Below, piece by piece: positions 1,676-32,202 of a stretch of DNA of 64,000 bases. The position numbers and the translations under genes are program-made. The notes under the pieces were generated by a model, which was not told the origin of the DNA, did not search any database, and was given only the letters and a program-made list of their open reading frames with translations. The stretch is from Bacteroidaceae bacterium (lineage in GTDB: Bacteria; Bacteroidota; Bacteroidia; Bacteroidales; Bacteroidaceae): contig JAEESE010000009.1 of assembly GCA_016286165.1 (NCBI GenBank), positions 62,001 to 126,000 on the forward strand. The letters run 5' to 3'. Position 1 is the stretch's first letter. The number at the start of each line of letters is the position of its first letter.

Positions 1676-3637
1676 ATGGAAGAAAAGAACGAACAGATGC
1701 AACTGCCGGAAAATGCGTTCCGCGAGTTGCGCGAAGGCGAACAGTATGAACCTTTGATGCGTGCCGACCGCTCTTATCCTGAAGTTAATGCCTGGAGCGT
1801 GTCATGGGGTGTCATCATGGCGGTGCTCTTCTCTGCAGCTGCCGCTTATCTTGGGCTGAAGGTAGGCCAAGTCTTTGAGGCGGCCATTCCCATTGCCATC
1901 ATCGCCGTGGGCCTGGGCAGTGCAGCTCATCGCAAAGGCGCTTTGGGCGAGAATGTCATTATTCAAAGTATTGGTGCTTCGTCCGGCGTAATTGTGGCCG
2001 GTGCCATATTTACTTTGCCAGCGTTGTATATACTTCAGGCTAAGTATCCCGACATCACCGTCAACTTCTTCCAGGTATTCCTCTCGTCGTTGCTCGGCGG
2101 TTGCCTTGGCATACTCTTCCTTATTCCTTTCCGCCGCTATTTCGTCAAGGACATGCACGGCAAGTACCCGTTCCCTGAAGCTACGGCTACAACGCAGGTG
2201 CTTGTCAGCGGTCAACAGGGGGGCAACCAGGCTCGTCCACTCATTTGGGCTGCCGCTATCGGTGGCCTCTACGACTTTGTTGTCAGCACGTTTGGTCTGT
2301 GGCACGAGAACCTCACCACCCGTATGACCGCCTGGGGCGAGGCTTTGGCTACTCGTGTCAAGCTTACCTTCTCCATCAACACCGGCGCTGCCGTCTTGGG
2401 CCTTGGCTATATCGTAGGTCTGAAATATGCAGCAATCATTTGCGCCGGCAGTCTGTTTGTGTGGTGGTTCCTCATTCCGTTGCTTGGCATGACAACCGTA
2501 GACTCTGTTATGCTGTCGGAGATGGATCCTCAGTTTATCTTCACCAACTATGCACGCTACATAGGCATTGGAGCTATTGCCATGGCCGGTGTCATCGGTA
2601 TCGTCAAGAGTTGGGGCGTAATCAAGAGTGCCGTTGGACTTGCCGGTCGCGAATTGCGTGGTAAGTCGGGTGCTGTAGCAGCTGCCACTCTTCGCACCGA
2701 CCGCGACCTCAGCATGCGTTTCCTTGCCATTGCCGTTATTGTGGCGCTGGCGATTGTCTTCGTGTTCTTCTATGCTGGCGTGATTCATAATTTCGCTATG
2801 GCTCTCGTTGCCTGGCTTGTAGTGGCTGTGATTGCATTCCTTTTCACTACTGTAGCGGCCAATGCCATCGCCATCGTCGGCACTAATCCGGTGAGCGGCA
2901 TGACTCTCATGACCCTCATCATCGCTTCAATAGTGCTTGTGGCCGTAGGTCTCGAGGGTACGAGCGGCATGATTGCGAGCATGGTCATCGGCGGTGTCGT
3001 TTGCACAGCTCTTTCTATGGCCGGCGGCTTCGTCACAGACCTTAAGATAGGTTACTGGTTGGGTACAACTCCGGCCAAGCAGGAAACATGGAAATTCCTG
3101 GGCACACTGGTGTCGGCAGCCACCGTAGGCGGCGTCATCATCATCCTGAACAAGACATATGGTTTCACGGGCGAGAATGCTCTGGTGGCACCTCAGGCTA
3201 ATGCCATGGCCGCCGTCATAGAACCATTGATGATGGGGCAGGGTGCTCCCTGGTTGCTCTACGGTGTAGGTGCCATGCTGGCCCTGCTGTTGAACGTCCT
3301 TGAGGTTCCTGTTCTGGCTTTTGCCCTTGGTATGTTCATTCCTTTGCAGCTTAATGTGCCTCTTGTCGTTGGTGGTGCCATCAACTGGTTCGTGACAACC
3401 CGCAGCAAGGACGCTTCCGTTAATCAGGCTCGTGGCGAGCGCGGCACACTACTTGCCAGCGGCTTCATCGCCGGCGGTGCCCTCATGGGTGTTGTGTCTG
3501 CCCTGCTCCGTTTCCTTGGTTTCGATTTGATGAACGCCGATTGGCTGGCAACAGGTGCTTCAGAGATATGCTCTATCATAGCTTACGTCCTGCTTATCAT
3601 CTACATGGTAGTAGCCAGTATGAAGAGTAAGGCTTAA
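1676..3637 (+). CDS. OPT-family oligopeptide transporter
   Basis: Polytopic membrane protein; GLKVGQVFEAAIPIAIIAVGLG, NVIIQSIGASSGVIVAGAIFTLPALYIL, FPEATATTQVL; ATG at 1676 chosen over the upstream TTG at 1622. Confidence 0.85.
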   Translation: MEEKNEQMQLPENAFRELREGEQYEPLMRADRSYPEVNAWSVSWGVIMAVLFSAAAAYLGLKVGQVFEAAIPIAIIAVGLGSAAHRKGALGENVIIQSIGASSGVIVAGAIFTLPALYILQAKYPDITVNFFQVFLSSLLGGCLGILFLIPFRRYFVKDMHGKYPFPEATATTQVLVSGQQGGNQARPLIWAAAIGGLYDFVVSTFGLWHENLTTRMTAWGEALATRVKLTFSINTGAAVLGLGYIVGLKYAAIICAGSLFVWWFLIPLLGMTTVDSVMLSEMDPQFIFTNYARYIGIGAIAMAGVIGIVKSWGVIKSAVGLAGRELRGKSGAVAAATLRTDRDLSMRFLAIAVIVALAIVFVFFYAGVIHNFAMALVAWLVVAVIAFLFTTVAANAIAIVGTNPVSGMTLMTLIIASIVLVAVGLEGTSGMIASMVIGGVVCTALSMAGGFVTDLKIGYWLGTTPAKQETWKFLGTLVSAATVGGVIIILNKTYGFTGENALVAPQANAMAAVIEPLMMGQGAPWLLYGVGAMLALLLNVLEVPVLAFALGMFIPLQLNVPLVVGGAINWFVTTRSKDASVNQARGERGTLLASGFIAGGALMGVVSALLRFLGFDLMNADWLATGASEICSIIAYVLLIIYMVVASMKSKA

Positions 3638-3669
3638 GTGCTTGGCAAAGACGTGCGGTCATGCAGGTT

Positions 3670-3687
3670 GTTCGGTCGCGACCGAAC
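3670..3687. repeat. 18-bp perfect palindrome GTTCGGTCGCGACCGAAC
   Basis: Sequence equals its own reverse complement. Confidence 0.8.
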
Positions 3688-3722
3688 GACCGATACCTTA
3701 AGGCTTGCAGTCAGGAACGACT

Positions 3723-3832
3723 GGCCTTACATCCAAATTAGGTTGGCCTTACATCCAAATTAGGTTGGCCTTATATCCAAACTAGGTTGGCTTTACAGCC
3801 GAATTAAGTTGGCCTACTTTTTTGAAGATTTA
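3723..3832. repeat. Intergenic tandem array 1, 22-bp period (five units, last one degenerate)
   Basis: GGCC/GGCT unit starts at 3723, 3745, 3767, 3789 and 3811; unit ggccttacatccaaattaggtt. Confidence 0.9.
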
Positions 3833-3874
3833 TAGAAATAAGAATTTGCAAATCATCGTTAACAACCGTATACA

Positions 3875-6800
3875 ATGAAAAGACTAGTTTTATGCTTAGC
3901 CGTAGTAGCACTGAGTCTGGCCTGTCAGGCTCAGGAGTGGCAGCGCCTCTCGGCTCCGGTGATGACGCCATGGGGCGAAGAGATTAATCCCGAAGCCGTG
4001 TGGCAGGAATATCCGCGCCCGCAACTGGTGCGCCCCGACTGGATCAACCTCAATGGAGTTTGGCAGTATTACCGCCGCGACAATACGGTACGTTTGGTGG
4101 CAGAGCGTTCGGCGAGCAGATTCAGCCAGCGCATTCTCGTGCCTTTTGGTGTGGAATCAGCACTCTCGGGCATCAAGCACACCGACTTAAGTACAACGGC
4201 AAATTCCACGCTGATGTATCGGCGCACGTTCACTCTGACTGATGCCTTCAAGGGTAAACGCACACTCCTGCACTTCGGTGCAGTGGACTGGCGTTGCGTA
4301 GTCTTCGTGAACAAACAGAAAGTAGGGCAGCACGATGGTGGCAACGACCCATTCACGTTTGATATTACCGAATACTTGACTACTGATGAAGAGCAGGAAC
4401 TTCAGGTCGCAGTTTACGACCCCTCAAACCGTGGCGGTCAGCCGGTCGGCAAGCAGACAGTAAATCCCGGCAGTATCTGGTACACCAGCTGCAGCGGTAT
4501 CTGGCAGACGGTGTGGCTTGAGCCTGTGAACGTTTCATATATAGAGCGCTACGAACTTGTTCCAGATGCAGCTTCAGGCACGGTGAAGGTTCGCGTCATA
4601 GCTAATGATCCCGCATGCAAGTACACTCTTATTGCCCGTGATGGCGAGGAGATTGTTGCTACTACTGAGAAAACGCGTGTGGGTGAGGAAGTTACGGTGA
4701 CTATTCCCAACCCTAAGTTGTGGAGCCCAGACTCGCCTTTCATCTATAACCTCGACATCGTTCTTAGCGGCGACAACTGTCAGGAGTGCGACCGTGCCCG
4801 TGGTTATTTCGGCCTGCGAACCCTTTCGCGAGGTATGATAAATGGGCATCCAGGCTTCCTGCTCAATGGCAAACCGTTGTTTATGTATGGTCCCTTGGAT
4901 CAAGGTTGGTGGCCTGATGGTCTGCTGACGCCGCCTTCATACGAAGCTATGATCTACGATCTCAAGACCATTAAGGCTTTGGGCATGAACATGGTGCGTA
5001 AGCATATCAAGGTTGAACCCGATCTCTGGTACGAGTGGTGCGACCGCAACGGTCTAATCGTGTGGCAGGATATGCCCAACGGCAACAGTGGCGGTAGCCT
5101 CGGCACCAAAGCCGAACTGCAGCATATATTCTACGATGAGTGCGAGCGCATCGTTACGGCTTTGAAGCAGCACCCGTGCATCTGCGTGTGGGTACCATAT
5201 AATGAGAGCTGGGGTCAGGACTCTGATGCCGGTGCAGGTCACACCATGCGCGGCTACCTCGTAGTGCGCAATGCCGATGCCGACACGGGACGTCTGATGA
5301 ATGCAGCTTCCGGCTGGACTGATTTCAAGATAGGCGACATTACCGATGCCCATAGTTATCCCTCGCCCAATGGAACTTCCAACCCAGGCAACAACCGCGT
5401 AAATGTCTGCGGAGAGTTTGGCGGTATCACCTATCTTATCGAAGATCACCTCTGGGCTGGCAGCCAACAGGTCTACACGTCGGTGGACAACAGTGACGAC
5501 TATACTGAGCGCTTCAATCAATACACTGAAGCATTGCAGGGCCTGCAATATGAGAAAGGCCTCTGGGCTGGTGTATATACCCAGATTACTGATGTAGAGC
5601 AAGAAGTCAACGGTATACTTACCTACGACCGCAAGGTGCTGAAGGTTAATGAACAACAACTGGCTTCCATTCGTGCCAACGTGGAGAGAACCATACATAA
5701 GCGTATGGATGGAGCCACAAGCGTGGTCAGTGCAGGCGACAATTCAAACGGCGTCTTATGGCATTACACCACCGACAAGCCCGCCGAGGGCTGGAATCAA
5801 CCTGGCTTCGACGACAGCTCGTGGAAGCGCGGAGCAGCCGGTTTCGGTGATATCAGTCAGCCGGCAGCCCGTGTTCGTACCAAGTGGAGCACACCCGAGA
5901 TATGGATTCGCCGTACATTCACTCTTACGGGCGTCACCGCCGACAACATCAAAGACCTGTGCTTGCGCCTGTTCTACGACGAGGATTCCGAGGTCTACAT
6001 CAACGGAGTGCTCGCCATGAGCATCACAGGCTACAACACCACTTATCAGCTCTTTGGAATCTCCGAGGCTGCACGGCAAACCATCAATCTCGAAGGCGAC
6101 AACGTCATAGCAATACACACCAAGCAGACAAGCGGCGGACAGTATATCGACGCAGGCTTCAGCATACGTTCCTATGTTGACAACGATGAACTGACCTTTA
6201 ACCCGATGACTGTCAACACCCTCCCCAAACCCACTACGGACGAGCAGCGAGCTTATCTGCTTTGCTATTCCAAGGCTGACGACGATCGCCTTTATTATGC
6301 TTGCAGCTACGATGGACTCAAGTGGCAAGAACTCAACGACGGCAATAGTATCTATGGCGCAACCGCCACGCAACCCGCTGTGCGCCGCCCTTTCATCTAT
6401 AGGCTGGTGGACGAAGAAGGTGCATCGACCTTTCATCTCGTTTTCGGAGGTAACGACGATGCCCCCGGCCTCTACAACCTAACCTCCACTGACCTCGTGA
6501 CTTGGAAACCTTTAGAAGGGCTAGATGCTAAGATTGTCGATGCAAAGGTTATAGCGCCAGAGGTATGCTTCGACAAGTCTTCGCAGTTCTTGGTATATTA
6601 CTGGACAGCTCCCAGCGGCGTCCTTTTCAAGTCACAGTTCTCCCGTACACGCAACTACACGACCTTCTCGCGTCCTGCATCGTTCATCGAACCAGGCTAT
6701 TCTGTTTCGGATATTAACATTTTCCCCGTCGGTAACACATACGTGGCATTATTCGATGGCTCTGAGGAACTTGGACTCTGTATGGGTTATAGTCCTTCCG

Positions 6801-7225
6801 TAAATCCATCACGTGGGCAGTTTTCCAATTTCGCACCCGTATTCGATACGCCTCATAAGATATTGTCGCCAACCGTGTTCGAAGCCTTCGACGACAACGG
6901 GTGGCTGATGCTCGGTATCGAGGACGGCGAATACAAAATCTTCGGAGCCATGAAAGCAGAGGCTGCAAACATTAAGTGGTGGGATTACATGACGATGCGC
7001 CCCACGCTTCCAGCCGATGTCAATGGAGGCAAGGTCCTGGTTGTAACGCGCGACGAACTGGTTAAGCTGCAACAAACGCTTGCCGACCTCGACGATATAC
7101 GTGATTTACCTGCTGCTAAGCAAGGTCGCGGCAGTTCCGTAACATATAACCTTCAGGGTATCCGTGTAGCCGACACCAACCGTCATGGCATTTATATTAC
7201 TGGCGGTAAGAAGATAGTCAGGTAA
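3875..7225 (+). CDS. Multidomain glycoside hydrolase: GH2 N-terminal part, galactose-binding-like middle, GH43-like propeller-type C-terminal part
   Basis: PRPQLVRPDWINLNGVWQYYRRD and VWVPYNESWGQD (GH2); repeated DRLYYACSYDGLKW / PGLYNLTSTDLVTW motifs (GH43-like); C-terminal YNLQGIRVADTNRHGIYITGGKKIVR. Confidence 0.8.
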   Translation: MKRLVLCLAVVALSLACQAQEWQRLSAPVMTPWGEEINPEAVWQEYPRPQLVRPDWINLNGVWQYYRRDNTVRLVAERSASRFSQRILVPFGVESALSGIKHTDLSTTANSTLMYRRTFTLTDAFKGKRTLLHFGAVDWRCVVFVNKQKVGQHDGGNDPFTFDITEYLTTDEEQELQVAVYDPSNRGGQPVGKQTVNPGSIWYTSCSGIWQTVWLEPVNVSYIERYELVPDAASGTVKVRVIANDPACKYTLIARDGEEIVATTEKTRVGEEVTVTIPNPKLWSPDSPFIYNLDIVLSGDNCQECDRARGYFGLRTLSRGMINGHPGFLLNGKPLFMYGPLDQGWWPDGLLTPPSYEAMIYDLKTIKALGMNMVRKHIKVEPDLWYEWCDRNGLIVWQDMPNGNSGGSLGTKAELQHIFYDECERIVTALKQHPCICVWVPYNESWGQDSDAGAGHTMRGYLVVRNADADTGRLMNAASGWTDFKIGDITDAHSYPSPNGTSNPGNNRVNVCGEFGGITYLIEDHLWAGSQQVYTSVDNSDDYTERFNQYTEALQGLQYEKGLWAGVYTQITDVEQEVNGILTYDRKVLKVNEQQLASIRANVERTIHKRMDGATSVVSAGDNSNGVLWHYTTDKPAEGWNQPGFDDSSWKRGAAGFGDISQPAARVRTKWSTPEIWIRRTFTLTGVTADNIKDLCLRLFYDEDSEVYINGVLAMSITGYNTTYQLFGISEAARQTINLEGDNVIAIHTKQTSGGQYIDAGFSIRSYVDNDELTFNPMTVNTLPKPTTDEQRAYLLCYSKADDDRLYYACSYDGLKWQELNDGNSIYGATATQPAVRRPFIYRLVDEEGASTFHLVFGGNDDAPGLYNLTSTDLVTWKPLEGLDAKIVDAKVIAPEVCFDKSSQFLVYYWTAPSGVLFKSQFSRTRNYTTFSRPASFIEPGYSVSDINIFPVGNTYVALFDGSEELGLCMGYSPSVNPSRGQFSNFAPVFDTPHKILSPTVFEAFDDNGWLMLGIEDGEYKIFGAMKAEAANIKWWDYMTMRPTLPADVNGGKVLVVTRDELVKLQQTLADLDDIRDLPAAKQGRGSSVTYNLQGIRVADTNRHGIYITGGKKIVR

Positions 7226-7347
7226 CTGCCGCGGGATTGAGCTCATCGTAGCGACGGTTAAAGTTTACAATGAAAAGACATCAAAACGCAATAAAACCAG
7301 CATTTGCAAATCATTAAATATAAAACAATTAAACAATAAATCACTCT

Positions 7348-8355
7348 ATGACATTGATTGAGAAAATCATTGCACGGGCGCAGGCTAATCCTCAGCGCAT
7401 CGTGCTGCCCGAGGCTGAAGAGGAGCGCACGCTTATCGCAGCCGACAAGGCGCTGGCCGACAAGTTGGCCGACATCATTCTCATCGGTAATCCTGCCAAG
7501 GTGCAGGCGCTGGCCGAGAAACATGGTCTTACACACATCGGCGAGGCTACGCTCATCGACCCCGAGAAATACGAACGCAGCGAGGAACTGGCCCAGCTGC
7601 TCTGCGAACTGCGCAAGAGCAAGGGCATGACTATCGAGCAGGCTCGCGAGCTTGTGAAGAATCCCTTGTACCTCGGTTGCATGATCATCAAGACCGAAGG
7701 CGCCGACGGTCAGATCTCCGGTGCCCTCTCGACCACGGGCGAGACGTTGCGTCCAGCCCTGCAGATTATCAAGTGCTCGCCGGGCATCACCTGCGTCAGC
7801 GGCGCTATGCTCCTCATCACCGACCGTCCTGAGTACGGCGAGGATGGCGTGCTCGTCGTGGGCGACGTGGCCGTGACGCCGATGCCCGATGCCGACCAGC
7901 TGGCTCAGATTGCTGTATGCACCGCCCAGACCGCCAAGAGCGTCGCGGGCTTCGAGGATCCCCGCGTAGCCATGCTGAGCTTCTCCACCAAGGGCTCTGC
8001 TAAGCACGAAGTAGTCGATAAGGTCATCGAGGCAACACGTCTGGCCAAGGAGCGTTGTCCCGAACTGAAGGTTGACGGTGAGTTGCAGGCCGATGCCGCC
8101 CTCGTGCCGTCAGTAGGTGAGAAGAAAGCGCCCGGCAGCCCCATTGCCGGCCATGCCAACGTCCTTGTCTATCCGAACCTCGAAGTGGGCAACATCAGCT
8201 ATAAGCTCGTGCAGCGCCTCGGCGGCGCCATTGCCATCGGTCCTATCCTCCAAGGCATTGCCCGTCCCGTCAACGACCTCAGCCGCGGCTGCTCCGTCGA
8301 TGATATTTACTACTTAATCGCTATAACTGCCTGTCAGGCAATGGATGCAAAATGA
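7348..8355 (+). CDS. pta: Phosphate acetyltransferase
   Basis: RIVLPEAEEERTLIAADKALADKLADIILIG; ATLLSFSTKGSAKHE-like motif; GSPIAGHANVLVYPNLEVGNISYKLVQRLGGA; overlaps ackA start. Confidence 0.97.
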   Translation: MTLIEKIIARAQANPQRIVLPEAEEERTLIAADKALADKLADIILIGNPAKVQALAEKHGLTHIGEATLIDPEKYERSEELAQLLCELRKSKGMTIEQARELVKNPLYLGCMIIKTEGADGQISGALSTTGETLRPALQIIKCSPGITCVSGAMLLITDRPEYGEDGVLVVGDVAVTPMPDADQLAQIAVCTAQTAKSVAGFEDPRVAMLSFSTKGSAKHEVVDKVIEATRLAKERCPELKVDGELQADAALVPSVGEKKAPGSPIAGHANVLVYPNLEVGNISYKLVQRLGGAIAIGPILQGIARPVNDLSRGCSVDDIYYLIAITACQAMDAK

Positions 8356-9545
8356 AAATACTTGTTTTGAACTGCGGAAGCAGCAGTATAAAATATGCTT
8401 TGTACAACATGGATGACCGCTCGGTCATCGCCAGCGGTGGCATCGAGAAAATCGGGCTGCCCGACTCCTTCATCAAGGTGAAGGCCAAAGGTCAGAAGGA
8501 CCAGTTCGATGTCTTAGTGCCCGAGCACACAGCCGGTGTGCAGGTGATCTTCAAGGTACTCACCGAGGGTAACCTCGCCGTCCTCAACGACCTCCACGAG
8601 ATTGACGCCGTAGGCCACCGCATGGTGCACGGCGGCGAGAAGTTCCAGAAGAGCGTGGTGCTCACGCCCGAAGTAATGGAGCAGTTTGCTGCTTGCAACG
8701 ACCTCGCTCCCTTGCACAATCCCGCCAACATCAAGGGCGTCAATGCCGTCAAGGCCCTGCTGCCCGACCTGCCGCAGGTAGGCGTCTTCGACACCGCCTT
8801 CCATCAGACCATGCCCGATTACGCTTATATGTACGCCCTTCCTTATGAACTTTACAAGAAGCATGGCGTGCGTCGCTACGGCTTCCACGGCACCAGCCAC
8901 CGCTACGTCTCGCAGCGTGTGCTCGAATACCTCGGTATGCCTAAGGAGGGCAGTAAGGTCATCACTTGCCACATCGGCGGCGGCGCATCCATTGCAGCCG
9001 TCAAGGATGGCAAGGTCGTCGATACCTCTATGGGCCTCACGCCTCTCGAAGGCCTGATGATGGGCACGCGCTCCGGCGATATCGATGCCGGTGCCGTCAC
9101 ATTCCTCATGGACAAACTCGGCCTCGACACCAAGGGTATCTCCAACCTGCTGAATAAGCAGAGTGGTCTGCTCGGCGTCAGCGAGGGTCGCAGCGACTTC
9201 CGCGATATCCTCGCCGGCATTGCCGAAGGCAGCGACCTTGCCCGTCTTGCCAAGGAGATGTATACCTATCGCATCAAGAAGTATATTGGTTCCTACGCTG
9301 CTGCTATGGGCGGTGTCGATGTCATCGTGTTCACTGCCGGCGCAGGCGAGAACCAGTACGAGGTGCGCGAAGGAGCTACCCGTGGCTTGGAGTTCCTCGG
9401 TGTGGAGCTCGATGATGAGAAGAACCACGCCTGCCGTGCCAAGGAAGCCGTCATCTCAAAGGATTCCTCACGCGTCAAGATTTGCGTCATACCTACCGAC
9501 GAAGAGCTGATGATTGCCATGGACACGCTGGCATTGGTCAGCTGA
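8352..9545 (+). CDS. ackA: Acetate kinase
   Basis: MKILVLNCGSSSIKYAL; VGHRMVHGGEKF; RRYGFHGTSHRYVSQR; CHIGGGASIAAV. Confidence 0.98.
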   Translation: MKILVLNCGSSSIKYALYNMDDRSVIASGGIEKIGLPDSFIKVKAKGQKDQFDVLVPEHTAGVQVIFKVLTEGNLAVLNDLHEIDAVGHRMVHGGEKFQKSVVLTPEVMEQFAACNDLAPLHNPANIKGVNAVKALLPDLPQVGVFDTAFHQTMPDYAYMYALPYELYKKHGVRRYGFHGTSHRYVSQRVLEYLGMPKEGSKVITCHIGGGASIAAVKDGKVVDTSMGLTPLEGLMMGTRSGDIDAGAVTFLMDKLGLDTKGISNLLNKQSGLLGVSEGRSDFRDILAGIAEGSDLARLAKEMYTYRIKKYIGSYAAAMGGVDVIVFTAGAGENQYEVREGATRGLEFLGVELDDEKNHACRAKEAVISKDSSRVKICVIPTDEELMIAMDTLALVS

Positions 9546-9574
9546 ACATTGAAGTTTAGATAATTTAAAAGAGC

Positions 9575-10627
9575 ATGAAGTATAGTATCATCATACCCGT
9601 TTACAACCGTCCCGATGAGGTGGCGGAGCTGCTGCTCAGTCTGTCGAAGCAGACATGTCGCGACTTCGACGTTCACATCGTTGAGGACGGCAGCAGCGTA
9701 ACGTGCCGTGAGGTGTGCGACCATTTTGCCAACCGCCTGGACATCCATTACTATATGAAGGAGAACGGCGGACCGGGTGCGGCACGCAACTACGGCGCCG
9801 AACGTGCCACGGGTGATTACTTCATTGTTCTTGACTCCGATGTAGTGCTGCCTCCAGGCTATCTTGCCGCCATAGACCAGGAGCTGACGGAGCGCCCCTG
9901 CGACGCCTTCGGCGGTCCCGACCGCTCTCACCCCGACTTCACGCCGGTGCAGAAAGCCATCAGCTACTCGATGACGTCGTTCTTCACCACTGGCGGCATT
10001 CGTGGCGGTAAGAAGAAACTGGATAAGTTCTACCCCCGTTCGTTCAACATGGGCGTGAGCCGCCAGCTGTGGCAACAGCTGGGCGGCTTCCGCGCCATGC
10101 GTTTCGGCGAGGACATCGATTTCAGCATCCGCATCTTCAAGGCAGGTGCACGCTGCCGTCTGTTCCCCGATGCCTGGGTATGGCATAAGCGCCGCACGGA
10201 TTTCCGTAAGTTCTTCCGTCAGGTGCGTAACTCCGGAACTGCACGCATCAACCTGCATCTCTTGCATCCCGGTTCGATGAAACTGGTGCATCTGTTGCCT
10301 GCGGTGTTCACGCTTGGTTGCCTGGTGCTGCTCATCCTCTTCCTCTTCGGGCTCGCTTTGTACCTGTTCGGTCCCGATCACATGAACAAGGCGGTAGGCT
10401 TTGCACTCTGCGAGCTGACCCTCCTGCTGCCCTTGCTCTATGCATTGCTCATCTTCGTCGATTCCTCCATCCGTAACCGTAGCCTTTGGGTCGGTCTGCT
10501 CTCCATCCCCGCCTCCTTCATCCAGCTAATAGGCTATGGTTTAGGTTTCCTTTCCGCAGCATGGAAACGGTTGGTATTGAAGCAGAAGGCTGAAGGATTT
10601 GATGACAACGAAAGGCTATACAAATGA
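9575..10627 (+). CDS. Glycosyltransferase family 2 protein
   Basis: KYSIIIPVYNRPDEVAELLLSLSKQT; ENGGPGAARNYGAERATGDYFIVLDSDV; C-terminal TM segments. Confidence 0.9.
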   Translation: MKYSIIIPVYNRPDEVAELLLSLSKQTCRDFDVHIVEDGSSVTCREVCDHFANRLDIHYYMKENGGPGAARNYGAERATGDYFIVLDSDVVLPPGYLAAIDQELTERPCDAFGGPDRSHPDFTPVQKAISYSMTSFFTTGGIRGGKKKLDKFYPRSFNMGVSRQLWQQLGGFRAMRFGEDIDFSIRIFKAGARCRLFPDAWVWHKRRTDFRKFFRQVRNSGTARINLHLLHPGSMKLVHLLPAVFTLGCLVLLILFLFGLALYLFGPDHMNKAVGFALCELTLLLPLLYALLIFVDSSIRNRSLWVGLLSIPASFIQLIGYGLGFLSAAWKRLVLKQKAEGFDDNERLYK

Positions 10628-11307
10628 ACATCAAGGATCTCCCTTCCGATGAACGGCCCCGTGAGCGATTGATGGAGCAAGGCGCTGAAGCCTTGTCCCC
10701 GGCTGAGCTGTTGGCTATTCTCATCGGCAGCGGCAACACTGAGGAGTCGGCAGTGCAGCTGATGCAGCGTCTCTTGGGTGATTGCGAAGGGAGTCTGAAG
10801 GCCTTGAGCCGCTTGTCGTTGAATGACCTCACGAAGAACTATAAGGGCCTGGGGCCAGCTAAGGCCGTCAGCATCCTTGCAGCCTGCGAGTTGGGCAAGC
10901 GACGCATGATGGAAGCGGCTGCCGAGAAGCGTAAGGTGGAGAGTTCCACTGACATCTACAATATCATGTACCCTCGGATGCGAGATCTGGCACACGAGGA
11001 AAGCTACGCGCTGTATCTGCGCACCGACAACAGCCTCGAAGGTCAGCCTTTCCTCATCAGCAAGGGGGGTATTGCAGGTACACAAGTGGACATTCGCTTG
11101 GTGTTGCGTGAAGCGTTGATTCGTCAGACGCCGACACTTGTGCTCGTACACAACCATCCTTCGGGCAACAAGCACCCTTCGCGCGACGACGACAACCTCA
11201 CCGACCGCCTCTCCAAAGCCTGTCAGGTCATGAACATCAGGCTGTTGGACCACGTCATCGTCACCGATGGCGACTACTACAGCTATCGTGAACAGGGGAA
11301 GGTGTAG
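10624..11307 (+). CDS. radC: RadC family JAB-domain protein
   Basis: PSDERPRERLMEQGAEALSPAELLAILIGSG; LVHNHPSGNKHPSRDD JAMM motif. Confidence 0.95.
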   Translation: MNIKDLPSDERPRERLMEQGAEALSPAELLAILIGSGNTEESAVQLMQRLLGDCEGSLKALSRLSLNDLTKNYKGLGPAKAVSILAACELGKRRMMEAAAEKRKVESSTDIYNIMYPRMRDLAHEESYALYLRTDNSLEGQPFLISKGGIAGTQVDIRLVLREALIRQTPTLVLVHNHPSGNKHPSRDDDNLTDRLSKACQVMNIRLLDHVIVTDGDYYSYREQGKV

Positions 11308-11339
11308 GGGAATGTATAATGGATAACGTGAAATGAATA

Positions 11340-11654: not shown

Positions 11655-11680
11655 CTCTTTTACAAATAGGTTTTGTTATG

Positions 11681-11703
11681 TTTCCACCTCCGGAAGGTGG
11701 AAA
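11681..11703. terminator. Hairpin downstream of the SufT-like gene, possible terminator
   Basis: TTTCCACCT-CCGGA-AGGTGGAAA, 9-bp stem; no long T tract. Confidence 0.4.
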
Positions 11704-11778
11704 AAGGGTGGAATAATTCGACCTATTATTCTGTGAATAAGGCGCTTTTGTATGTAATGTAGGTTTCCACCATAATCA

Positions 11779-11810
11779 TTTGCAGAGCGTTAGTTTTCGC
11801 CGTACCTTTG
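11779..11810 (+). promoter_or_regulatory. Bacteroidota promoter (TTTG-N20-TACCTTTG)
   Basis: TTTG 11779-11782, 20-nt spacer, TACCTTTG 11803-11810. Confidence 0.7.
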
Positions 11811-12017: not shown

Positions 12018-12049
12018 TTTGGTCGTAATGCATCATAGTATTACTTTTG
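12018..12049 (+). promoter_or_regulatory. Bacteroidota promoter for the lpxH-like gene
   Basis: TTTG 12018-12021, 20-nt spacer, TACTTTTG 12042-12049. Confidence 0.65.
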
Positions 12050-12076
12050 CACTCAAAAGCAAAAGAACAAGCGACG

Positions 12077-12841
12077 ATGAAACCTATTTATTTCCTTTCC
12101 GATGCCCATTTGGGCAGCCGTGCACTCAAACACGGCCGTACTCAGGAGCGCCGTCTGGTGCGTTTCCTGGATAGTATCAAGGACAAAGCCGGCGCCGTAT
12201 ATATGCTGGGCGATATGTTCGACTTCTGGCACGAGTACAAGATGGTCGTGCCAAAGGGATTCACACGCTTTCTGGGTAAGGTGAGTGAACTTACGGACTT
12301 GGGTGTTGAAGTTCATTTCTTCACCGGTAACCACGACATATGGGCTTATGATTATCTAGAGAAGGAATGCGGGCTCATCATACATCGCAAGCCGCTGACC
12401 ATCGAGCTGGGCGATAAGATTTTCTATTTAGCACATGGCGACGGCCTTGGCGATCCAGACCCTAAGTTCAAGCTCCTGCGCTTCATCTTCCATAATCGCA
12501 TCTGCCAGATTCTGTTTGCGGCTTTGCACCCTCGTTGGGGCGTTGATCTCGGAATGGCATGGGCCAAGCATAGCATGCAGAAGCATATGGCCGAGGAGCC
12601 TCCGCGCTATGAGGGAGAGGACAAGGAGCATCTGGTTCTTTTTGCTAAAGACTATCTGCGCACGCACCCCGACGTTAACTTCTTTGTTTTCGGGCACCGC
12701 CATATAGAACTTGATTTGATGCTCTCGCGCTCAACACGCGTGATGATCCTTGGCGACTGGATATCGCAGTTTACCTACGCTGTCTTTGATGGAGAACGAT
12801 TGTGGATGGAGAACTACATTGAAGGAGAAACGGAACCATAG
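12077..12841 (+). CDS. lpxH: UDP-2,3-diacylglucosamine diphosphatase (LpxH-like metallophosphoesterase)
   Basis: YFLSDAHLGSRALKHGR; YMLGDMFDFWHEYK; FTGNHDIWAYDYLEKECG; FVFGHRHIELD. Confidence 0.9.
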   Translation: MKPIYFLSDAHLGSRALKHGRTQERRLVRFLDSIKDKAGAVYMLGDMFDFWHEYKMVVPKGFTRFLGKVSELTDLGVEVHFFTGNHDIWAYDYLEKECGLIIHRKPLTIELGDKIFYLAHGDGLGDPDPKFKLLRFIFHNRICQILFAALHPRWGVDLGMAWAKHSMQKHMAEEPPRYEGEDKEHLVLFAKDYLRTHPDVNFFVFGHRHIELDLMLSRSTRVMILGDWISQFTYAVFDGERLWMENYIEGETEP

Positions 12842-12860
12842 TTAAGTACAGACTGAAAAA

Positions 12861-12948
12861 TGCGACCGGTCGTATCATCGAATACGACCGGTCGCATTAA
12901 GCATTATGACCGGTCGTGTGTGCATGTTCGACCGGTCGTGTATTTTGT
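12861..12948. repeat. Intergenic tandem array 2, four 22-bp units each containing (C/T)GACCGGTCG
   Basis: GACCGGTCG cores at 12863, 12885, 12907 and 12929, exact 22-bp spacing. Confidence 0.95.
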
Positions 12949-12954
12949 TATGTC

Positions 12955-13521
12955 TTAGGCTTTCACGCGGCCCTGATAGCTGCCGTCGCGAGTGTCAACC
13001 TCGATAATCTCGCCTTCGTTGATGAAGAGAGGTACGCGCACCTCGGCACCTGTCTCCACGCGGGCGGGCTTGAGGGTGTTGGTGGCGGTGTCGCCCTTGA
13101 GTCCGGGTTCGGTCCAAGTCACGGCGAGCTTAACCTTTACAGGCACATCGGCATAGAGGACAGTCTCAGTGGAGGCGTCGGTGACGACTTCAACATTCTC
13201 ACCTTCCTTCATGAAGGCAACGCCGTTGATCTGATCCTTGGGGATGGGAATCTGCTCGTAGGTCTCGTTGTTCATGAAGATGTAGTCTTCGCCTTCCATG
13301 TACAGGAACTGGTAGCTGCGGCGCTCTACGCGCACGTCCTCGAGTTTCTCGCCGATGTTGAAACGACGCTCGAGCACGTTGCCGCTAACCACGTCCTTGA
13401 GGGTAGTGCGCATGATGGTGTTGCCCTTGCCAGGCTTCACATGCAGGAAGTCGATGCAGAAATAGAGCTTGCCGTCCATGCGGATGCAGGTGCCCTTCTT
13501 GATGTCTTGTGAGTTAATCAT
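12955..13521 (-). CDS. efp: Translation elongation factor P
   Basis: [54 protein letters not shown]. Confidence 0.97.
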
Positions 13522-13868: not shown

Positions 13869-14028
13869 CCTCACGTTAACACGTTACACGTTAACACGTT
13901 AACAGACTAACAGAACGAGTGCCTCGCGGCCTGTTAACTGATTAGCCTGTTAGCGTGTTAATTTGTTTTTATCATTCTTGGTTCATCAGCTCATCGTTCA
14001 ATAGTTCATCGTTCAATAGTTCAACGGA

Positions 14029-24102: not shown

Positions 24103-24141
24103 AAGGTGATGAAGGCTGCTTCGGTAGCCTTCCACCTTTTT
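24101..24141. terminator. Bidirectional terminator between the lyase gene and recO (convergent)
   Basis: AAAAGGTG-at-GAAGGCTGCTTCGGTAGCCTTC-CACCTTTTT hairpin with A/T tracts on both flanks. Confidence 0.8.
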
Positions 24142-24862
24142 AACTGAATACATCCCTGAGCACTGCCAGGCTCTTTAGCTCCGGCAGCTCAGGGATGTGA
24201 AGTCTGTAAAACAAGACAACAATCTCAAGTGCACGGCGACGCATGGCTCCGTTCAGCCCGACAGATTGCATGGAACGAATGTTCATGCGCAGGAACTTGG
24301 GCACAAGCGCTGACTCATTTGTTTCAAGATAATAAGGATGTGAAGGGACAGTGTCGACAAACGTTGCCGATTCGAGATCAAAGAGTGCGCCTTCGTGCCA
24401 GTAGTCGATGTTAGGCATGAAACCTAGAAATCGTGTCAACTTCATCAAGAACACGATATGGAAGTTTGCAAAATGTTCTTCGCTCTCATCCAACCATTCA
24501 AGGCTGTTGAATACGAAATCGAATAGTGGGGGATTGGCTTGTTCTGAACGCAGGGCATGGCTAAGCAGTTCGCCGAGGAACATGGCAATGGCCGCTTTAG
24601 AGGGTTGGAACGGCAGTGAGCGCCATGGATGGCATAGGTTCAGCTCGCGTGGCTTTTGCAAGGTGACGTTCAGGCGCGGCTCCCATACTGCTTCCACCAG
24701 CGTGAGTGGAGCGAGTATGCTGGCTCTCACGGCTGTGCGCCCCTTGGTTGAGCGACGAACGATGAAGTCCACCGTCCCCGATGTCTCGGTGAAGATGCTT
24801 ACTATCGCTTGGGTGTCGCTGTAGCGTAGCGAGCGAAGAACTATACCACGTGTACGATTCAT
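24140..24862 (-). CDS. recO: DNA repair protein RecO
   Basis: MNRTRGIVLRSLRYSDTQAIVSIFTETSGTVDFIVRRSTKGR; start set at 24862, not the longer ORF. Confidence 0.88.
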   Translation of the reverse strand: MNRTRGIVLRSLRYSDTQAIVSIFTETSGTVDFIVRRSTKGRTAVRASILAPLTLVEAVWEPRLNVTLQKPRELNLCHPWRSLPFQPSKAAIAMFLGELLSHALRSEQANPPLFDFVFNSLEWLDESEEHFANFHIVFLMKLTRFLGFMPNIDYWHEGALFDLESATFVDTVPSHPYYLETNESALVPKFLRMNIRSMQSVGLNGAMRRRALEIVVLFYRLHIPELPELKSLAVLRDVFS

Positions 24863-24867
24863 CGATG

Positions 24868-24875
24868 CAAAAGTA
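24868..24875 (-). promoter_or_regulatory. -7 promoter element 5 nt upstream of the recO ATG
   Basis: CAAAAGTA on + strand = TACTTTTG on - strand. Confidence 0.5.
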
Positions 24876-24946
24876 TTAAAAAAAACAACAGAACAAGGCC
24901 TTTTGAGCCAAAATACGGGCAAGAATAAGATTTTTTTTCAGAATTA

Positions 24947-24978
24947 TTTGGTGCGTATTACATTTTGCACTACCTTTG
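24947..24978 (+). promoter_or_regulatory. Promoter for tRNA-Glu/rpsT
   Basis: TTTG 24947-24950, 20-nt spacer, TACCTTTG 24971-24978. Confidence 0.75.
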
Positions 24979-25030
24979 CACCCGCAAATCAGCCCCATAA
25001 GCTAAAAGGTCGCTGATTCAAGCACGGTTC

Positions 25031-25102
25031 GGTCCATTCGTCTATCGGTTAGGACGAGAGATTTTCATTCTCTAAAGAGCAGTTCGACTCTGCTATGGAC
25101 TA
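25031..25102 (+). tRNA. tRNA-Glu (anticodon TTC)
   Basis: GGTCCAT...ATGGACT acceptor; AGAGA-TTTTCAT-TCTCT anticodon arm; GTTCGACTC T arm. Confidence 0.95.
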
Positions 25103-25140
25103 CAATTTAATAAAACGTTAAACAATAAAACTTTAAAACT

Positions 25141-25154
25141 TCGCGAATTCGCGA
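25141..25154. promoter_or_regulatory. 14-bp perfect palindrome in the rpsT leader
   Basis: TCGCGAATTCGCGA equals its reverse complement; ends 13 bp before the rpsT ATG. Confidence 0.5.
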
Positions 25155-25167
25155 GTTATACTAAGAA

Positions 25168-25422
25168 ATGGCAAATCATAAGTCATCACTCAAGAGAATC
25201 CGTCAGGAGCAGAAGCGCCGCCTCCACAATCGCTACTATGCAAAGGCTATGCGCGCTGCTGTACGTAAACTGCGTGCTACAACAGATAAGGCTGAGGCCG
25301 TGAACATGTATCCTTCTGTTCAGAAGATGCTCGATAAGCTCGCTAAGGTGAACATTATCCACAAGAACAAGGCTTCCAACCTCAAGTCGAAGTTGCAGCG
25401 CTACATCCAGAAGCTCGGTTAA
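25168..25422 (+). CDS. rpsT: 30S ribosomal protein S20
   Basis: [36 protein letters not shown]. Confidence 0.97.
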
Positions 25423-25481
25423 TATATCGGGCTTTGGTTGCTTTGAATCCATAGCATTTTAGTAAATATACAAACATTTAG

Positions 25482-25516
25482 GAGCGGTTGGCCGTGAGGT
25501 TCACCGCTTTTTTTTG
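25482..25516 (+). terminator. Rho-independent terminator after rpsT
   Basis: AGCGGT...ACCGCT followed by eight or more T. Confidence 0.65.
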
Positions 25517-25587
25517 TGCCTTGAAAAAAGTTGTAAAAAGCATGCGTTTTTTTTGTGTTTTCGCTTTTCTATTTCCGTTTTTTTTCA

Positions 25588-25595
25588 TAACTTTG
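25588..25595 (+). promoter_or_regulatory. -7 promoter element for gyrB
   Basis: TAACTTTG. Confidence 0.5.
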
Positions 25596-25639
25596 CACGC
25601 AAAATAGAAGAAGTAAATTATATACGCAAAACAGCATAA

Positions 25640-27619
<1,980 letters not shown>

Positions 27620-27665
27620 AATAATCTTCTGTTTGAAATAGATTTCAGACTTAAGGTTCCCATTG

Positions 27666-27712
27666 CCGCGAGGACGTTATCATATGACGAACGTCCTCGC
27701 GGTTTCCTTTTC
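27666..27712 (+). terminator. Terminator after gyrB
   Basis: CCGCGAGGACGTT...AACGTCCTCGCGG, perfect 13-bp stem, followed by TTTCCTTTTCT. Confidence 0.8.
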
Positions 27713-27720
27713 TCACATAT

Positions 27721-27852
27721 ACGTCATGACGTATTACCAGACACGTCCTATTATGAAGGTAAACACGTCCTAATGTAGAGCCATATACGTACTAATGTAA
27801 AGCCATATACGTCCTATTGTAAAGGCTTGCACGACCGGTCGTAAAACGGGCC
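27721..27852. repeat. Intergenic tandem array 3, six 22-bp units beginning ACG
   Basis: ACGT(C/A) or ACGAC at 27721, 27743, 27765, 27787, 27809, 27831 (and ACGTC at 27853); exact 22-bp spacing, degenerate bodies. Confidence 0.92.
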
Positions 27853-27927
27853 ACGTCTTTTCATGGTTATTAATGAAGCGGTGGAGGTTAAATTGAAGGT
27901 TGGGGAGTCAGAAGACGTGGAATAAGA

Positions 27928-27964
27928 AAATGGAGGGCGCTTCACCACGAAGCGCCTTCCATTT
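27928..27964 (-). terminator. Terminator for the lipoprotein/ABC genes on the - strand
   Basis: AAATGGAGGGCGCTTC-ACCAC-GAAGCGCCTTCCATTT hairpin. Confidence 0.7.
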
Positions 27965-27990
27965 GTGTGTAAGTTGCTGTTGCTGAGAGC

Positions 27991-28797
27991 TTATTCAATG
28001 AGGCTGTTACGGGCTTCAGCAATCTGATCCTTAGCGTCGTTGAGCTGATCTCTGAGTTCGTCAACAGTGATAGCGTTGATCACGGTGAGAGGATCGAAAG
28101 CTTCTGCTACGGGGATAATCTCGGGATCATACTCGGTGAGGCGGTTCAGGGCGTCCTGGATGAGGATGATGCGGAGCGAAACATTTGAAGCAGCGTTGTC
28201 GTCGAAAGCAGTGAGGAACTTGTCGGTGTTCTGCGAGATGACGTACAGCTGCTCGATGAGTGCTGTGGATGCAATCTGCCAGAAGAAGTTGATGCGTCCA
28301 TTCTCCTCCATAGCGTTGTAGAGCTCTGATGAAGCTTCGTAGACGTCACCGTCGGTTTCATCAAGAACCTTGAATGAGGGATCGTTGATGTCGACAATAA
28401 GCTTTGCAATCTCATTCTCGTACTCAGATACGGGCATGCCGTAGAGTTCAGCAATCTCGCGGTCAATCTGGAGGGCGGTGAGAACGCGGTACTGCTCAGC
28501 CAGAGTCGTGGCCTTCTCGGCGATGCCGGGCTCGAGGAGGTAGGCGGGCTTAGCCAGACGCTCTTCTTCGGTAAGCACAATCATGCCGTCCTTCTTGCGG
28601 ATAGGCAGTTGCTTGAGCTTTGCCATCTGAGCAGCGAGGCTGTCGATGTTGAGTTTGATGCTGGCTTCAATCTGCTCCTGCTCGAACACTTTCAGTGAAT
28701 CGACGGTGTCAGTGGTCTCAGCCTGTTTGTTGCCACCGCAAGCAGCGATAACCATAGTAGCAATAGCTACTGCGAAAAACTTAACTTGTTTCATCAT
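27991..28797 (-). CDS. Hypothetical lipoprotein
   Basis: MMKQVKFFAVAIATMVIAACGGNKQAETTD lipobox. Confidence 0.75.
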   Translation of the reverse strand: MMKQVKFFAVAIATMVIAACGGNKQAETTDTVDSLKVFEQEQIEASIKLNIDSLAAQMAKLKQLPIRKKDGMIVLTEEERLAKPAYLLEPGIAEKATTLAEQYRVLTALQIDREIAELYGMPVSEYENEIAKLIVDINDPSFKVLDETDGDVYEASSELYNAMEENGRINFFWQIASTALIEQLYVISQNTDKFLTAFDDNAASNVSLRIILIQDALNRLTEYDPEIIPVAEAFDPLTVINAITVDELRDQLNDAKDQIAEARNSLIE

Positions 28798-28845
28798 TCT
28801 GTTTGAATTAAATGGTTAATATTTGGTTTGTTTTCTCGTTTCTGA

Positions 28846-31758
28846 TTAATTATCCTTTCTCATCCATCGGCCGGGGCAGTCGGCGAAGAGCAACGATGCG
28901 GCGATAATCGACATGATTAGCAGAACCGTCAGGTTGAACCATAAAGTCTTCACGCAGCAGTTGCCCAGCAGCTTACGGCTGCTGTAGAACGGCGCCCGGC
29001 CGATCTTGCTCTGTGGTGTGAGGTAAATGGCCCCGGTGCGCGGCACGAAGTGGTTGCTGACGATGTCGAGTACCCGTTCCTGATCTGCAGAGGTGACTAT
29101 CTCTTCAAGCTTGAGGTTGAAGTTGTCGTTCTTGATTTGGAGCACGGCATCCTTGCCCAGTTCGCGCACCATGGCCGATATTTTCTTGTCTACAGCGAGC
29201 GTTAGCTGGTTGCCTCGTTTCTTGAGAATGCTTTCGGCTTCGTCGATGTAAGCTTTCAGAGGCTCGTATTCATAAAGGCCGTCGTAGGGCTTCATACCGC
29301 AGAAAGCGGTTATGCTTGGCAGATTCGTTCTTATGATTTCCATGTGCTGCTTATCGCCTTCCTCGCCACGTCTTAGTTCGTCGCGGAAGGTTTCGAGCTG
29401 CGACTGCATCTCATGTACGGGCCCGACGAGTTGCCATTGTGCCTCGTGTTTCTGCTGATGTAGTTCGAACAGGGGGCGTTCGTAGGTGTTGTCGGAGAAC
29501 TGAGTCACGGCCAGAGCCTCGAATGACCAGCGTGACGGAATCACATCGCCAACTAAGGGAACGTTGCCAGTGGTGCTGCGCGGAGTGAGGTCCGAGAAGT
29601 CTACCACAAGTCCGCAGAGCAGAATCTGTGGGATAAGCAGCAGCGGAATAGTGATGTAAATGGCTACCACGGAGCTGAGGCACTGCGATAGCAGCAGACC
29701 AGTGAGGTTCGCCAGTACGGCAGTGACGAACAGCACGAGCCACCAGATGAATGTTAAACCGTGCAAGCCCATGATGGTGTTGCCGACAAGGGTGAACAAC
29801 AGCGTTTGTAGGGCTGATACGCCAGCCAGGAACACTATCTTGGACCATATATAACTCCCGTGTGAGAGCCTGAGGAAGCGCTCGCGTTTTAGCAGGGCGC
29901 GGTCCTTGATTATCTCTTCGGCGCTGCCGCTCATGCCCACGAAAGTAGCCACAATGACAGCCATGAACAGGTAGCTGACAAGGTTTTTGTTGTGCATCAC
30001 GCTGTAGCCTTCGGGCGGGGTGTAGCGCGTCAGCATGGCGCAGATAGCAGCCAGCAGGGGTGATACAAGTGCCGTGCTTAAGATGTACTGTAGGTTGGCA
30101 ACCTTAGCCTTGGCATTACGCTGCAGGTAGATTATGAATTGCTTCAGGCGACTGGGGCGCCGTTGATCGGAAGGCGGCACTTCGCTTACGTCTGGTTCAT
30201 CGAGCTTGGGCCTGTTCTTCAGGTAGAGAGCATGCCATTCCTCGGGCGTAGTCTTACGCTCGTCGGATTCCTCGCCACTGCTTGTCAACGCTTTTTCGTC
30301 AATGATGTTGAGCACAATCTCAGGGTTGACGTTGCCACAAGTGGGGCAGGCGCTGGTGTCGGCATCGGCGTAGTCGGCCGCTGTCTTGAAGTAAGTGATG
30401 GCGTCGATGGGGTTGCCGTCGAACACAGGATAGCCACCGCGGTCGAGCAGCCATAGGCGGTCGAAGAGCTTGTATACGTCGCTCGACGGCTGATGGATGT
30501 TCACCACGATGAGTTTGCCCTTGAGTGTCTGCTCCTTAAGCAGGCTTACCACTTTCTCAGTGTCAGCCGATGAAAGGCCTGAAGTGGGCTCGTCAAGGAA
30601 AAGTACAGCGGGTTCGCGGATAAGTTCGAGGGCGATGTTCAGGCGTTTGCGCTGGCCTCCCGAGATGTATTTATTGAGCGGTGAACCGGCTTTGAGGTGA
30701 GCCACGGCATCCAGGCCGAGGTCCTTGAGAGTTTTGTCTACACGGCGCTCCAACTCATCATCGGCCATTCCGGCGAAGCAAAGGCGGGCTGTGTAGTGCA
30801 GGTTCTGGCGCACGGTGAGCTCTTCGATGAGAAGATCGTCCTGCGGAACATAGCCTATCAGGTCGCGTGCTTCGGGCTCATCGATGGAGTGTCCGTTGAT
30901 GGTTATGGTACCCTGCTGTGGTATGAGCGTTCCGTTGAGTAGCGAAAGAAGTGTTGTCTTTCCCGTGCCGGAGCCGCCCATGATGGCCACGAGCTCGCCG
31001 CTATGAAGCGTGAAGCTCATGTCGTGCATGCCATTGTCGCTGTTGGGGTAGCGGAAATTGATGTTGCGTCCGCAGAACTCCACTTGCGAGGTTTGGCCAA
31101 CGGCTTCACCTCGTTGGCGCAAATGGGCTTCGTGAATGGTAGAGTAGTAGACCGGCTTTCCTGTGCGGCCCTTGAGCACACTACTCTGCAGCCACAGCTG
31201 ATAGGCTCCCGAGAGCACGGGGACGTCGTTGAGCGTCACAGTGTCGGGGCCCAGGTATGTGAACAGCAGCTGGCCTGTCTCGTCGCTGAGGAGTGTGCGC
31301 AGCTCGCCCTCTGTGTCGTCGAGGTGATGAACAAGCACATGCTCGGTGGTGCGGCCGCTGACGTAGTCTACGTAGTCGCGCATAGCCTCTTTGCTGACGC
31401 CGAAGCACTTAGCCATGGCGCTGAACATGGGATGCTCTGCTGTGAGCGCCTTGCCGCTGCCGCCTGCAGAAAATTCCAACAGACGCAGGACCAGCATGGC
31501 TGCTTCGCGCTGGCTAATCTTACCTTTCAGCTGCTCGCAGATGGAGGCTACTACGGTGCTTGTGTCGAGCTCGTCGGTCATCTCATACACTTCGCGTGAG
31601 TCGGTGTAGAGATTGAGATAGGCATCGGTGTTGCGAATGCCGAAATGGTGACGCAGATAGCTCGCGAGCATCTTTTTTGCACGCGACTCATCGACCTGCT
31701 CCGCCTTGCCGAACAAGGCGAAGAGACTCAGGAAACTCGAGAGTATGATATCATTCAT
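28846..31758 (-). CDS. ABC transporter: TerB-like N-terminal region, ABCG-like ATPase and ABC-2 type permease in one polypeptide
   Basis: VAIMGGSGTGKTTLLSLLNG Walker A; YISGGQRKRLNIALELIREPAVLFLDEPTSGLSS signature/Walker B; C-terminal TM helices; N-terminal alpha-helical LSLFALFGKAEQVDESRAKKML. Confidence 0.85.
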   Translation of the reverse strand: MNDIILSSFLSLFALFGKAEQVDESRAKKMLASYLRHHFGIRNTDAYLNLYTDSREVYEMTDELDTSTVVASICEQLKGKISQREAAMLVLRLLEFSAGGSGKALTAEHPMFSAMAKCFGVSKEAMRDYVDYVSGRTTEHVLVHHLDDTEGELRTLLSDETGQLLFTYLGPDTVTLNDVPVLSGAYQLWLQSSVLKGRTGKPVYYSTIHEAHLRQRGEAVGQTSQVEFCGRNINFRYPNSDNGMHDMSFTLHSGELVAIMGGSGTGKTTLLSLLNGTLIPQQGTITINGHSIDEPEARDLIGYVPQDDLLIEELTVRQNLHYTARLCFAGMADDELERRVDKTLKDLGLDAVAHLKAGSPLNKYISGGQRKRLNIALELIREPAVLFLDEPTSGLSSADTEKVVSLLKEQTLKGKLIVVNIHQPSSDVYKLFDRLWLLDRGGYPVFDGNPIDAITYFKTAADYADADTSACPTCGNVNPEIVLNIIDEKALTSSGEESDERKTTPEEWHALYLKNRPKLDEPDVSEVPPSDQRRPSRLKQFIIYLQRNAKAKVANLQYILSTALVSPLLAAICAMLTRYTPPEGYSVMHNKNLVSYLFMAVIVATFVGMSGSAEEIIKDRALLKRERFLRLSHGSYIWSKIVFLAGVSALQTLLFTLVGNTIMGLHGLTFIWWLVLFVTAVLANLTGLLLSQCLSSVVAIYITIPLLLIPQILLCGLVVDFSDLTPRSTTGNVPLVGDVIPSRWSFEALAVTQFSDNTYERPLFELHQQKHEAQWQLVGPVHEMQSQLETFRDELRRGEEGDKQHMEIIRTNLPSITAFCGMKPYDGLYEYEPLKAYIDEAESILKKRGNQLTLAVDKKISAMVRELGKDAVLQIKNDNFNLKLEEIVTSADQERVLDIVSNHFVPRTGAIYLTPQSKIGRAPFYSSRKLLGNCCVKTLWFNLTVLLIMSIIAASLLFADCPGRWMRKDN

Positions 31759-32070
31759 CTTTGCTATCTGTTGCTTGCTTGAAGCTTGTAGAGGTTTACC
31801 TGTACTGCGTTTCTAATGCGTCACGCACGTGTATATGTGCGCGCAGTATGCATACATTCAGCCGACAAATGTAAAAAAATAATCCGTATCTTGGGTACAT
31901 CTTATGGTTAAAAAGGATTAAACCGACTAATTTATGTAAAAAATATGAACTGCAAAAAGCAAAACAACGCTTTTACATACCACTTCGCTTTCCCTATAAC
32001 CACACTTTGCTTCTCCGTACATTATATTATTATATGAGCGGATACGGAGAGAAATGAAACCTGATTTTTA

Positions 32071-32202
32071 TTTAATCAGGTTGGGCATTCGTTCAATTTA
32101 AGTTAGGCATGAACGCAAATAAGGTTAACTTAAAGTGCCAATTAGGTTGGCTTAATATGCCAATTAAATAGGCTTAATACGCCAATTAGGTTGGGTTTAT
32201 AT
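32071..32202. repeat. Intergenic tandem array 4, six 22-bp units
   Basis: Units start at 32071, 32093, 32115, 32137, 32159 and 32181; best units gccaattaggttggcttaatat / gccaattaaataggcttaatac / gccaattaggttgggtttatat. Confidence 0.92.

Follow-up and report, generated by a model that had tools for sequence, protein, structure and literature searches.

The window, by which the whole 64,000-nt stretch of DNA analyzed here is meant, carries four arrays of short units that step at 22 bp (Table 1). Array 1 lies in a codirectional gap whose flanking genes encode an OPT transporter and a family 2 glycoside hydrolase, and it is followed by CTTTTTT. Array 2 lies in the convergent gap between the gene at 12047-12841 and the elongation factor P (EF-P) gene (12955-13521, minus strand), with AAAAA at its left edge and a T-rich run at its right edge. 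Array 3 occupies a convergent gap 3' of gyrB, where its two clear palindromes are separated by 110 bp (5 x 22 bp), and array 4 is found in a codirectional gap 3' of the 4'-phosphopantetheinyl transferase gene (32325-32978, minus strand). A 46-bp direct repeat (32270-32371; 2.2 copies, 91% matches) adjoins array 4 at the 3' end of the latter gene, and a tRNA gene is located at 25031-25102. The four arrays had been listed in the initial annotation of the window as intergenic and stepping at exactly 22 bp; their positions and steps were confirmed, each lies between predicted genes, and the agreement given for arrays 1 and 4 (17 of 22 positions) was reproduced. The 12-mer ACGACCGGTCGT, given there as common to arrays 2 and 3, occurs at full length in array 3 only (27831), whereas array 2 holds 10-11 bp of it, with CGACCGGTCG at 12863, 12885, and 12929. 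When lags of 10-60 were scanned across the window, only lags 22 and 44 yielded several stretches of 66 bp with at least 40 of 66 positions matching, and the other lags gave a single array at lag 21 and a single array at lag 46.

Table 1. Array features of the window and motifs of the unit families. A slash marks the center between two bases.
Feature	Sequence or units	Position	Center(s)	Strand	Remark
Family A site	ACGTGC/GGTCAT	3651-3662	3656/3657	no strand	1 mismatch to motif; opens the array 1 grid; from site list
Family F palindrome	TTCGGTCG/CGACCGAA	3671-3686	3678/3679	no strand	A site 22 bp before, first B site 66 bp after
Array 1	Family B units (TTAGGYY/RRCCTAA type)	3722-3813	3744, 3766, 3788, 3810	no strand	
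Array 2	Family A units (CGACC/GGTCG)	12859-12942	12867, 12889, 12911, 12933	no strand	
Array 3	TACGTCA/TGACGTA; degenerate ACGTCCTA.TGT units; ACGACC/GGTCGT	27720-27845	27726/27727 (first palindrome), 27836/27837 (last palindrome)	no strand	
Array 4	Degenerate family B units	32071-32201	32126, 32148, 32192 (recognized)	no strand	Lag-22 segment 32115-32201
Family A motif	AYGWMC/GKWCRT				152 sites at ≤1 mismatch
Family B motif	TTAGGYY/RRCCTAA				
Family C motif	CTCTA/TAGAG				
Family D motif	TTCCCAYY/RRTGGGAA				
Family F motif	TTCGGTCG/CGACCGAA				

The array units are palindromes of 10-18 bp belonging to at least five families, with ACGACC/GGTCGT, TTAGGCC/GGCCTAA, CTCTA/TAGAG, TTTCCCACC/GGTGGGAAA, and TTCGGTCG/CGACCGAA as examples; the symmetry of a further unit type with GTCGCATC is less clear. 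Tested array by array with column shuffles, symmetry was significant (p < 0.05) in 12 of 42 arrays, and the center always fell between two bases. In all four array-forming families, a G/C step is commonly found at a distance of 11 bp from the core center, the DNA in between being A/T-rich. Family A sites occur at a density of 1.15 per kb in intergenic DNA vs 0.07 per kb in genes, and their conserved positions, A.G..C/G..C.T, are arranged as for a putative half-site contacted by one protein subunit. The initial annotation saw the four arrays but missed the palindromic units, their multiple families, and, as described below, the genome-wide and largely species-private nature of the class and its bias toward gene 3' ends.

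The genome that contains the window (G000), whose relatives are Bacteroidales, comprises 3.45 Mb in 44 contigs, of which 1.24 Mb was scanned: genes were called using a hexamer gene finder, and the gaps between them were searched. Some of the scanned stretches were picked because they contained matches; an unselected 458 kb shows the same pattern. Lag 22 gave 59 intergenic arrays in 46 gaps, far above the 0-1 arrays at each of the intergenic lags 17, 19, 20, 23, 25, 26, and 27, and lag-22 arrays were absent from the coding DNA of the same 1.24 Mb and from all 20 dinucleotide-shuffled versions of the full set of gaps. This lag comparison is the one that the initial annotation had put forward as a test able to refute it. 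Extrapolation gives more than 100 chromosomal arrays. Lags 14, 21, and 28 are elevated jointly across the genome, which is consistent with a separate class of short-unit (period-7) repeats. This second class of intergenic tandem repeats, with 7-8 bp units often in 15-bp pairs, was seen in the window at 13872-13904, 13981-14024, and 45894-45929. The gaps of the genome also contain many other repeats, dispersed and 60-300 bp long, that have no relation to the arrays; comparing array-free gaps with one another gave 761 matches. In addition, three adjacent, mutually similar genes of about 3100 codons each lie at C25:256810-287480.

The strongest result of the analysis is that different families share one 22-bp register. 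When motifs were located regardless of spacing, nearest same-family neighbors 12-32 bp apart were found at 22 bp in 146 cases and at 21 bp in 2. Adjacent same-family units differ by 850 substitutions vs 2 indels, and in the 146 pairs at 22 bp, substitutions affect 40% of the positions in spacers and 19% of those in cores. Of 42 consecutive pairs from different families, 24 are separated by a multiple of 22 bp, where about 2 are expected. Using stricter motifs and one nearest cross-family pair per gap, the distance was an exact multiple of 22 in 16 of 19 gaps (p ~3e-19), and for each of the other moduli from 15 to 30 at most one gap fits. The pairing of family F with family A accounts for 6 of the 16 fitting gaps and is perhaps a copied pair, so that the independent count is somewhat below 16. 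At C36:214815, 214837, and 214859, sites of families D, A, and D follow each other in 22-bp steps; at C36:123909-124217, families A, B, and C keep one phase over 300 bp; and in the window, the A site at 3656, the F site at 3678, and the B sites from 3744 share one register. A motif-free test of palindromes lying just outside arrays and unlike the array units placed 7% of them in register vs about 1.5% at other offsets. The suggestion in the initial annotation that spacing is kept while unit sequence drifts is thus borne out both by the rarity of indels and by the exact 22-bp multiples between families, and slippage or the copying of single units is insufficient to explain unrelated families on one grid.

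Arrays are most frequent in convergent gaps (1.37 per kb) and less so in codirectional (0.39 per kb) and divergent gaps (0.13 per kb). A run of four T residues 3-22 bp from the last core was present at 24 of 76 transcription-exit edges vs 1 of 38 other edges (Fisher, 2e-4); downstream of stop codons, gaps free of sites show such runs at a general rate of 14% per 19-nt window. Stems are better paired in last units with T-runs than in the other units (0.83-0.90 vs 0.65-0.72; k=3-5), which suggests that terminal units often double as intrinsic terminators. Inspection by eye of the genes flanking divergent array gaps showed no clear regulator gene; membrane, IMP dehydrogenase-like, HU-like, and restriction-enzyme-like proteins are encoded there.

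Several species of the genus have 22-bp arrays, built from differing palindromes, and the palettes are largely species-private. Among the 61 genomes searched, family A (three sites in a row, each with ≤2 mismatches) was found in 7, with 127 places in the genome of the window, 142 in G017, and 16, 15, 4, 2, and 1 in the others, the 2 being at the control level. The family A half-sites of G017 are changed to ACGTCC and ACGTGC. Family B occurs in the genome of the window only, and the CTCCCCTAGGSGAGT family has about 100 pairs in G002 and none in the other 60 genomes. Arrays in G002 consist of 4-7 units at 22-bp steps, in which a 16-bp core of its own is kept and a 6-bp spacer is free, while the units of G330 are of the GAAAAAAATTTTTTTC type and those of G003 of the GTCTCACTGGTGAGAC type. 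The gap between the gene at 12047-12841 and the EF-P gene has a true ortholog in G003, with 84% identity of the upstream protein, and changed A-type sites, CGAATGGTCG or similar, lie there at 731, 775, 797, 819, 929, and 951 in one phase modulo 22. The gyrB gaps that were compared have different downstream genes and are therefore not orthologous. Among close relatives, arrays occur in a patchy manner. Near family A sites, a recurring inverted element, AGGTGGATCACC...GGTGGGACACCT (or GGTGGTCCACC), was observed in the G000 gaps C36:47971, C25:44537, C25:228686, C43:91555, C12:30637, and C12:74419, and it is present too in G003 (L101) and G339 (L221).

We propose, with about an even chance of being right, that the arrays, at gene 3' ends, offer dimeric DNA-binding proteins helically phased sites for cooperative binding and probably serve as transcription boundaries. 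Palindromic sites placed 22 bp apart, that is two helical turns, would set neighboring dimers on one face of the DNA, where they could touch, and the occurrence of several families on one grid suggests that the spacing is dictated by contact between neighbors and not by base sequence. Different families would presumably be read by different or diverging proteins. Arrays at gene 3' ends, chiefly in convergent gaps, would then probably act as a transcription boundary, either a roadblock or an insulator, and their last unit would often also supply the hairpin of an intrinsic terminator. The dimers and their neighbor contacts are inferred by analogy with 434-type operators, and the boundary function by analogy with stoperators. 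The repeated protein contact on one DNA face that the initial annotation had offered as one option thus gains support as a reading, from indel avoidance and from the cross-family multiples of 22 bp. A survey of 837 predicted proteins (36% of the genome) gave no candidate binding protein and no large paralogous DNA-binding family; this result and the patchy occurrence of arrays among relatives are the weakest points of the proposal.

Protein-bound phased arrays might instead serve chromosome organization, such as nucleoid folding or segregation, and the 3' bias could then reflect mere avoidance of promoters and genes. The genome-wide spread, over all contigs that have matches, and the long clusters of several families, which reach 300 bp, would suit this explanation, as would the A/T-rich DNA between the core and the G/C step 11 bp away, which fits DNA bending around a protein. 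It is nevertheless unlikely, since the enrichment of convergent over codirectional gaps and the confinement of T-runs to transcription-exit edges both follow transcription.

Selfish dispersed repeats of the REP, MITE, or BrickBuilt kind, moved or amplified in 22-bp steps by an enzyme and without host function, are a distinctly unlikely source, although the families are patchy and species-private, show a 3' extragenic bias like that of REP elements, and include the F-A combination, perhaps a copied pair. Unrelated loci in G003 (L101 395-1501) and G339 (L221 ~1463-2093) share, at 71% identity, a 550-bp segment that carries arrays and has TIR-like ends (TATTTAAGTGAAAA-like), and its presence at different loci in two species suggests that a MITE-like element may carry some of the arrays. 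The masked flanks of array gaps in G000, however, show no preferential mutual matches, which speaks against a MITE origin there. The RAYT Y1 transposase domain (PF01797) is absent from G000 and G017, the two genomes richest in family A, so a REP/RAYT origin was rejected, as were IS21 terminal repeats, for which the only genome-wide hit was one weak IstB-domain match (34 bits) away from the window arrays. Spacers are 56-57% identical between adjacent units vs 31-39% between arrays; the difference between arrays does not fit dispersed copies, and the greater likeness of adjacent units indicates that local duplication is also involved.

A structured 3' RNA, which the initial annotation had offered as a further option, would make the units 3' UTR hairpins acting as tandem terminators or stability elements. 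The palindromes do sit at the 3' ends of genes, those last units that have T-runs resemble intrinsic terminators with better-paired stems, and array 2 folds far better than its shuffles. Folding z-scores for the arrays nevertheless range from -9.9 to +0.6, and for array 3 neither strand folds better than its shuffles. No compensatory changes were found between arms, within a unit or between neighboring units, and pairing was no better than with shuffled arms. Rfam gave a tRNA as its sole match in the window and none for the arrays, and hairpins need no exact 22-nt step common to unrelated hairpins. RNA structure is therefore not general and is improbable as the basis of the arrays, and the lack of covariation, the mixed folding, and the half-site-like positions of family A together favor recognition of DNA. 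Neutral slippage minisatellites, the remaining option of the initial annotation, are extremely improbable: the likeness of adjacent spacers does indicate local unit duplication, but slippage alone cannot put unrelated sequences in one register, and it would have to account for dozens of unrelated unit sequences with 22 bp as their only period, for different families on one grid, and for the 850 substitutions vs 2 indels.

The proposed phased protein sites can be compared with several known systems. Operators of the 434 repressor are palindromes of about 14 bp spaced about 22 bp apart, at which dimers make contact on one face of the DNA, and such operators are limited to a few promoter sites per phage. 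The arrays here likewise present palindromic sites at a helically phased fixed spacing but differ in their number on the chromosome, extrapolated to more than 100 arrays, in lying mostly at the 3' ends of genes, and in having several families in one register. REP/BIME elements are extragenic palindromes that are often clustered and prefer gene 3' ends and convergent gaps. The arrays resemble them as extragenic palindromes with a 3' bias (convergent 1.37 and divergent 0.13 per kb), whereas they differ from REP/BIME with RAYT in the absence of RAYT from the two richest genomes, the exact 22-bp grid, and the several unrelated families, and no guide tetranucleotide was recognized. Within the open-access literature, the nearest described repeat is BrickBuilt, a minisatellite/MITE of Porphyromonas gingivalis with 23-nt head-to-tail intergenic repeats in 19 copies, one unit family, leader and tail flanks, and up to 6% indels within an element (PMC4596501). 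Both are intergenic repeats of nearly equal unit length dispersed in a Bacteroidales genome; unlike the single 23-nt family of BrickBuilt, the arrays here step at 22 bp, place at least five palindromic families on one grid, and almost lack indels, and those of G000 have no shared leader or tail flanks, the 550-bp shared segment being confined to G003 and G339. The stoperators of Cluster A mycobacteriophages are repressor sites found in large numbers across the phage genome and away from promoters, where they block transcription elongation; their motifs vary between related phages along with their repressors, and they are single asymmetric sites oriented with transcription (PMC6550527). Unlike stoperators, the units here are palindromic and form multi-unit arrays in bacterial chromosomes, and a roadblock activity is suggested here by location and terminator-like edges.

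No described class that keeps unrelated palindromes in one genome-wide register, or that swaps palindromes between species at a fixed step, was found in the open-access literature. We suggest, tentatively and at less than an even chance, that the arrays represent a new class of chromosomal element, in which unrelated palindromes on a fixed 22-bp grid would each have their own fast-evolving protein, the proteins would form one filament marking gene ends, and species would swap palindromes while keeping the grid. If a protein system does so, the ends of bacterial genes would carry a DNA-bound structure of a new kind, whose binding specificities change fast between close species.

Rumen Bacteroidaceae MAGs, a Candidatus Azobacteroides MAG, and the actinobacterium Intrasporangium chromatireducens contain strict GACCGGTC triples at 22-bp spacing; the 295 other genomes of the order that were searched gave few matches. 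I. chromatireducens has 32 pair matches vs 0 for the reversed control, and its loci L060, L061, L064, L065, L066, and L152 contain 22-bp arrays of TYGACCGGTCAC in several ordinary intergenic places beside ordinary genes. Placement at 3' ends is not clear in these arrays, and because the GACCGGTC type is the sole motif seen in 400 kb of this genome, they may be the operators of one regulator there. No transposase was present next to the Intrasporangium arrays tested, and a plasmid search with an Intrasporangium array gave no match. Two phage-type contigs with three spaced sites showed no link to a repressor. L195, a GC-rich IMG/VR viral contig, has at 6870-6960 three TTAGGCTAGCCTAA-like sites in 22-bp steps, which may form a phage operator array.
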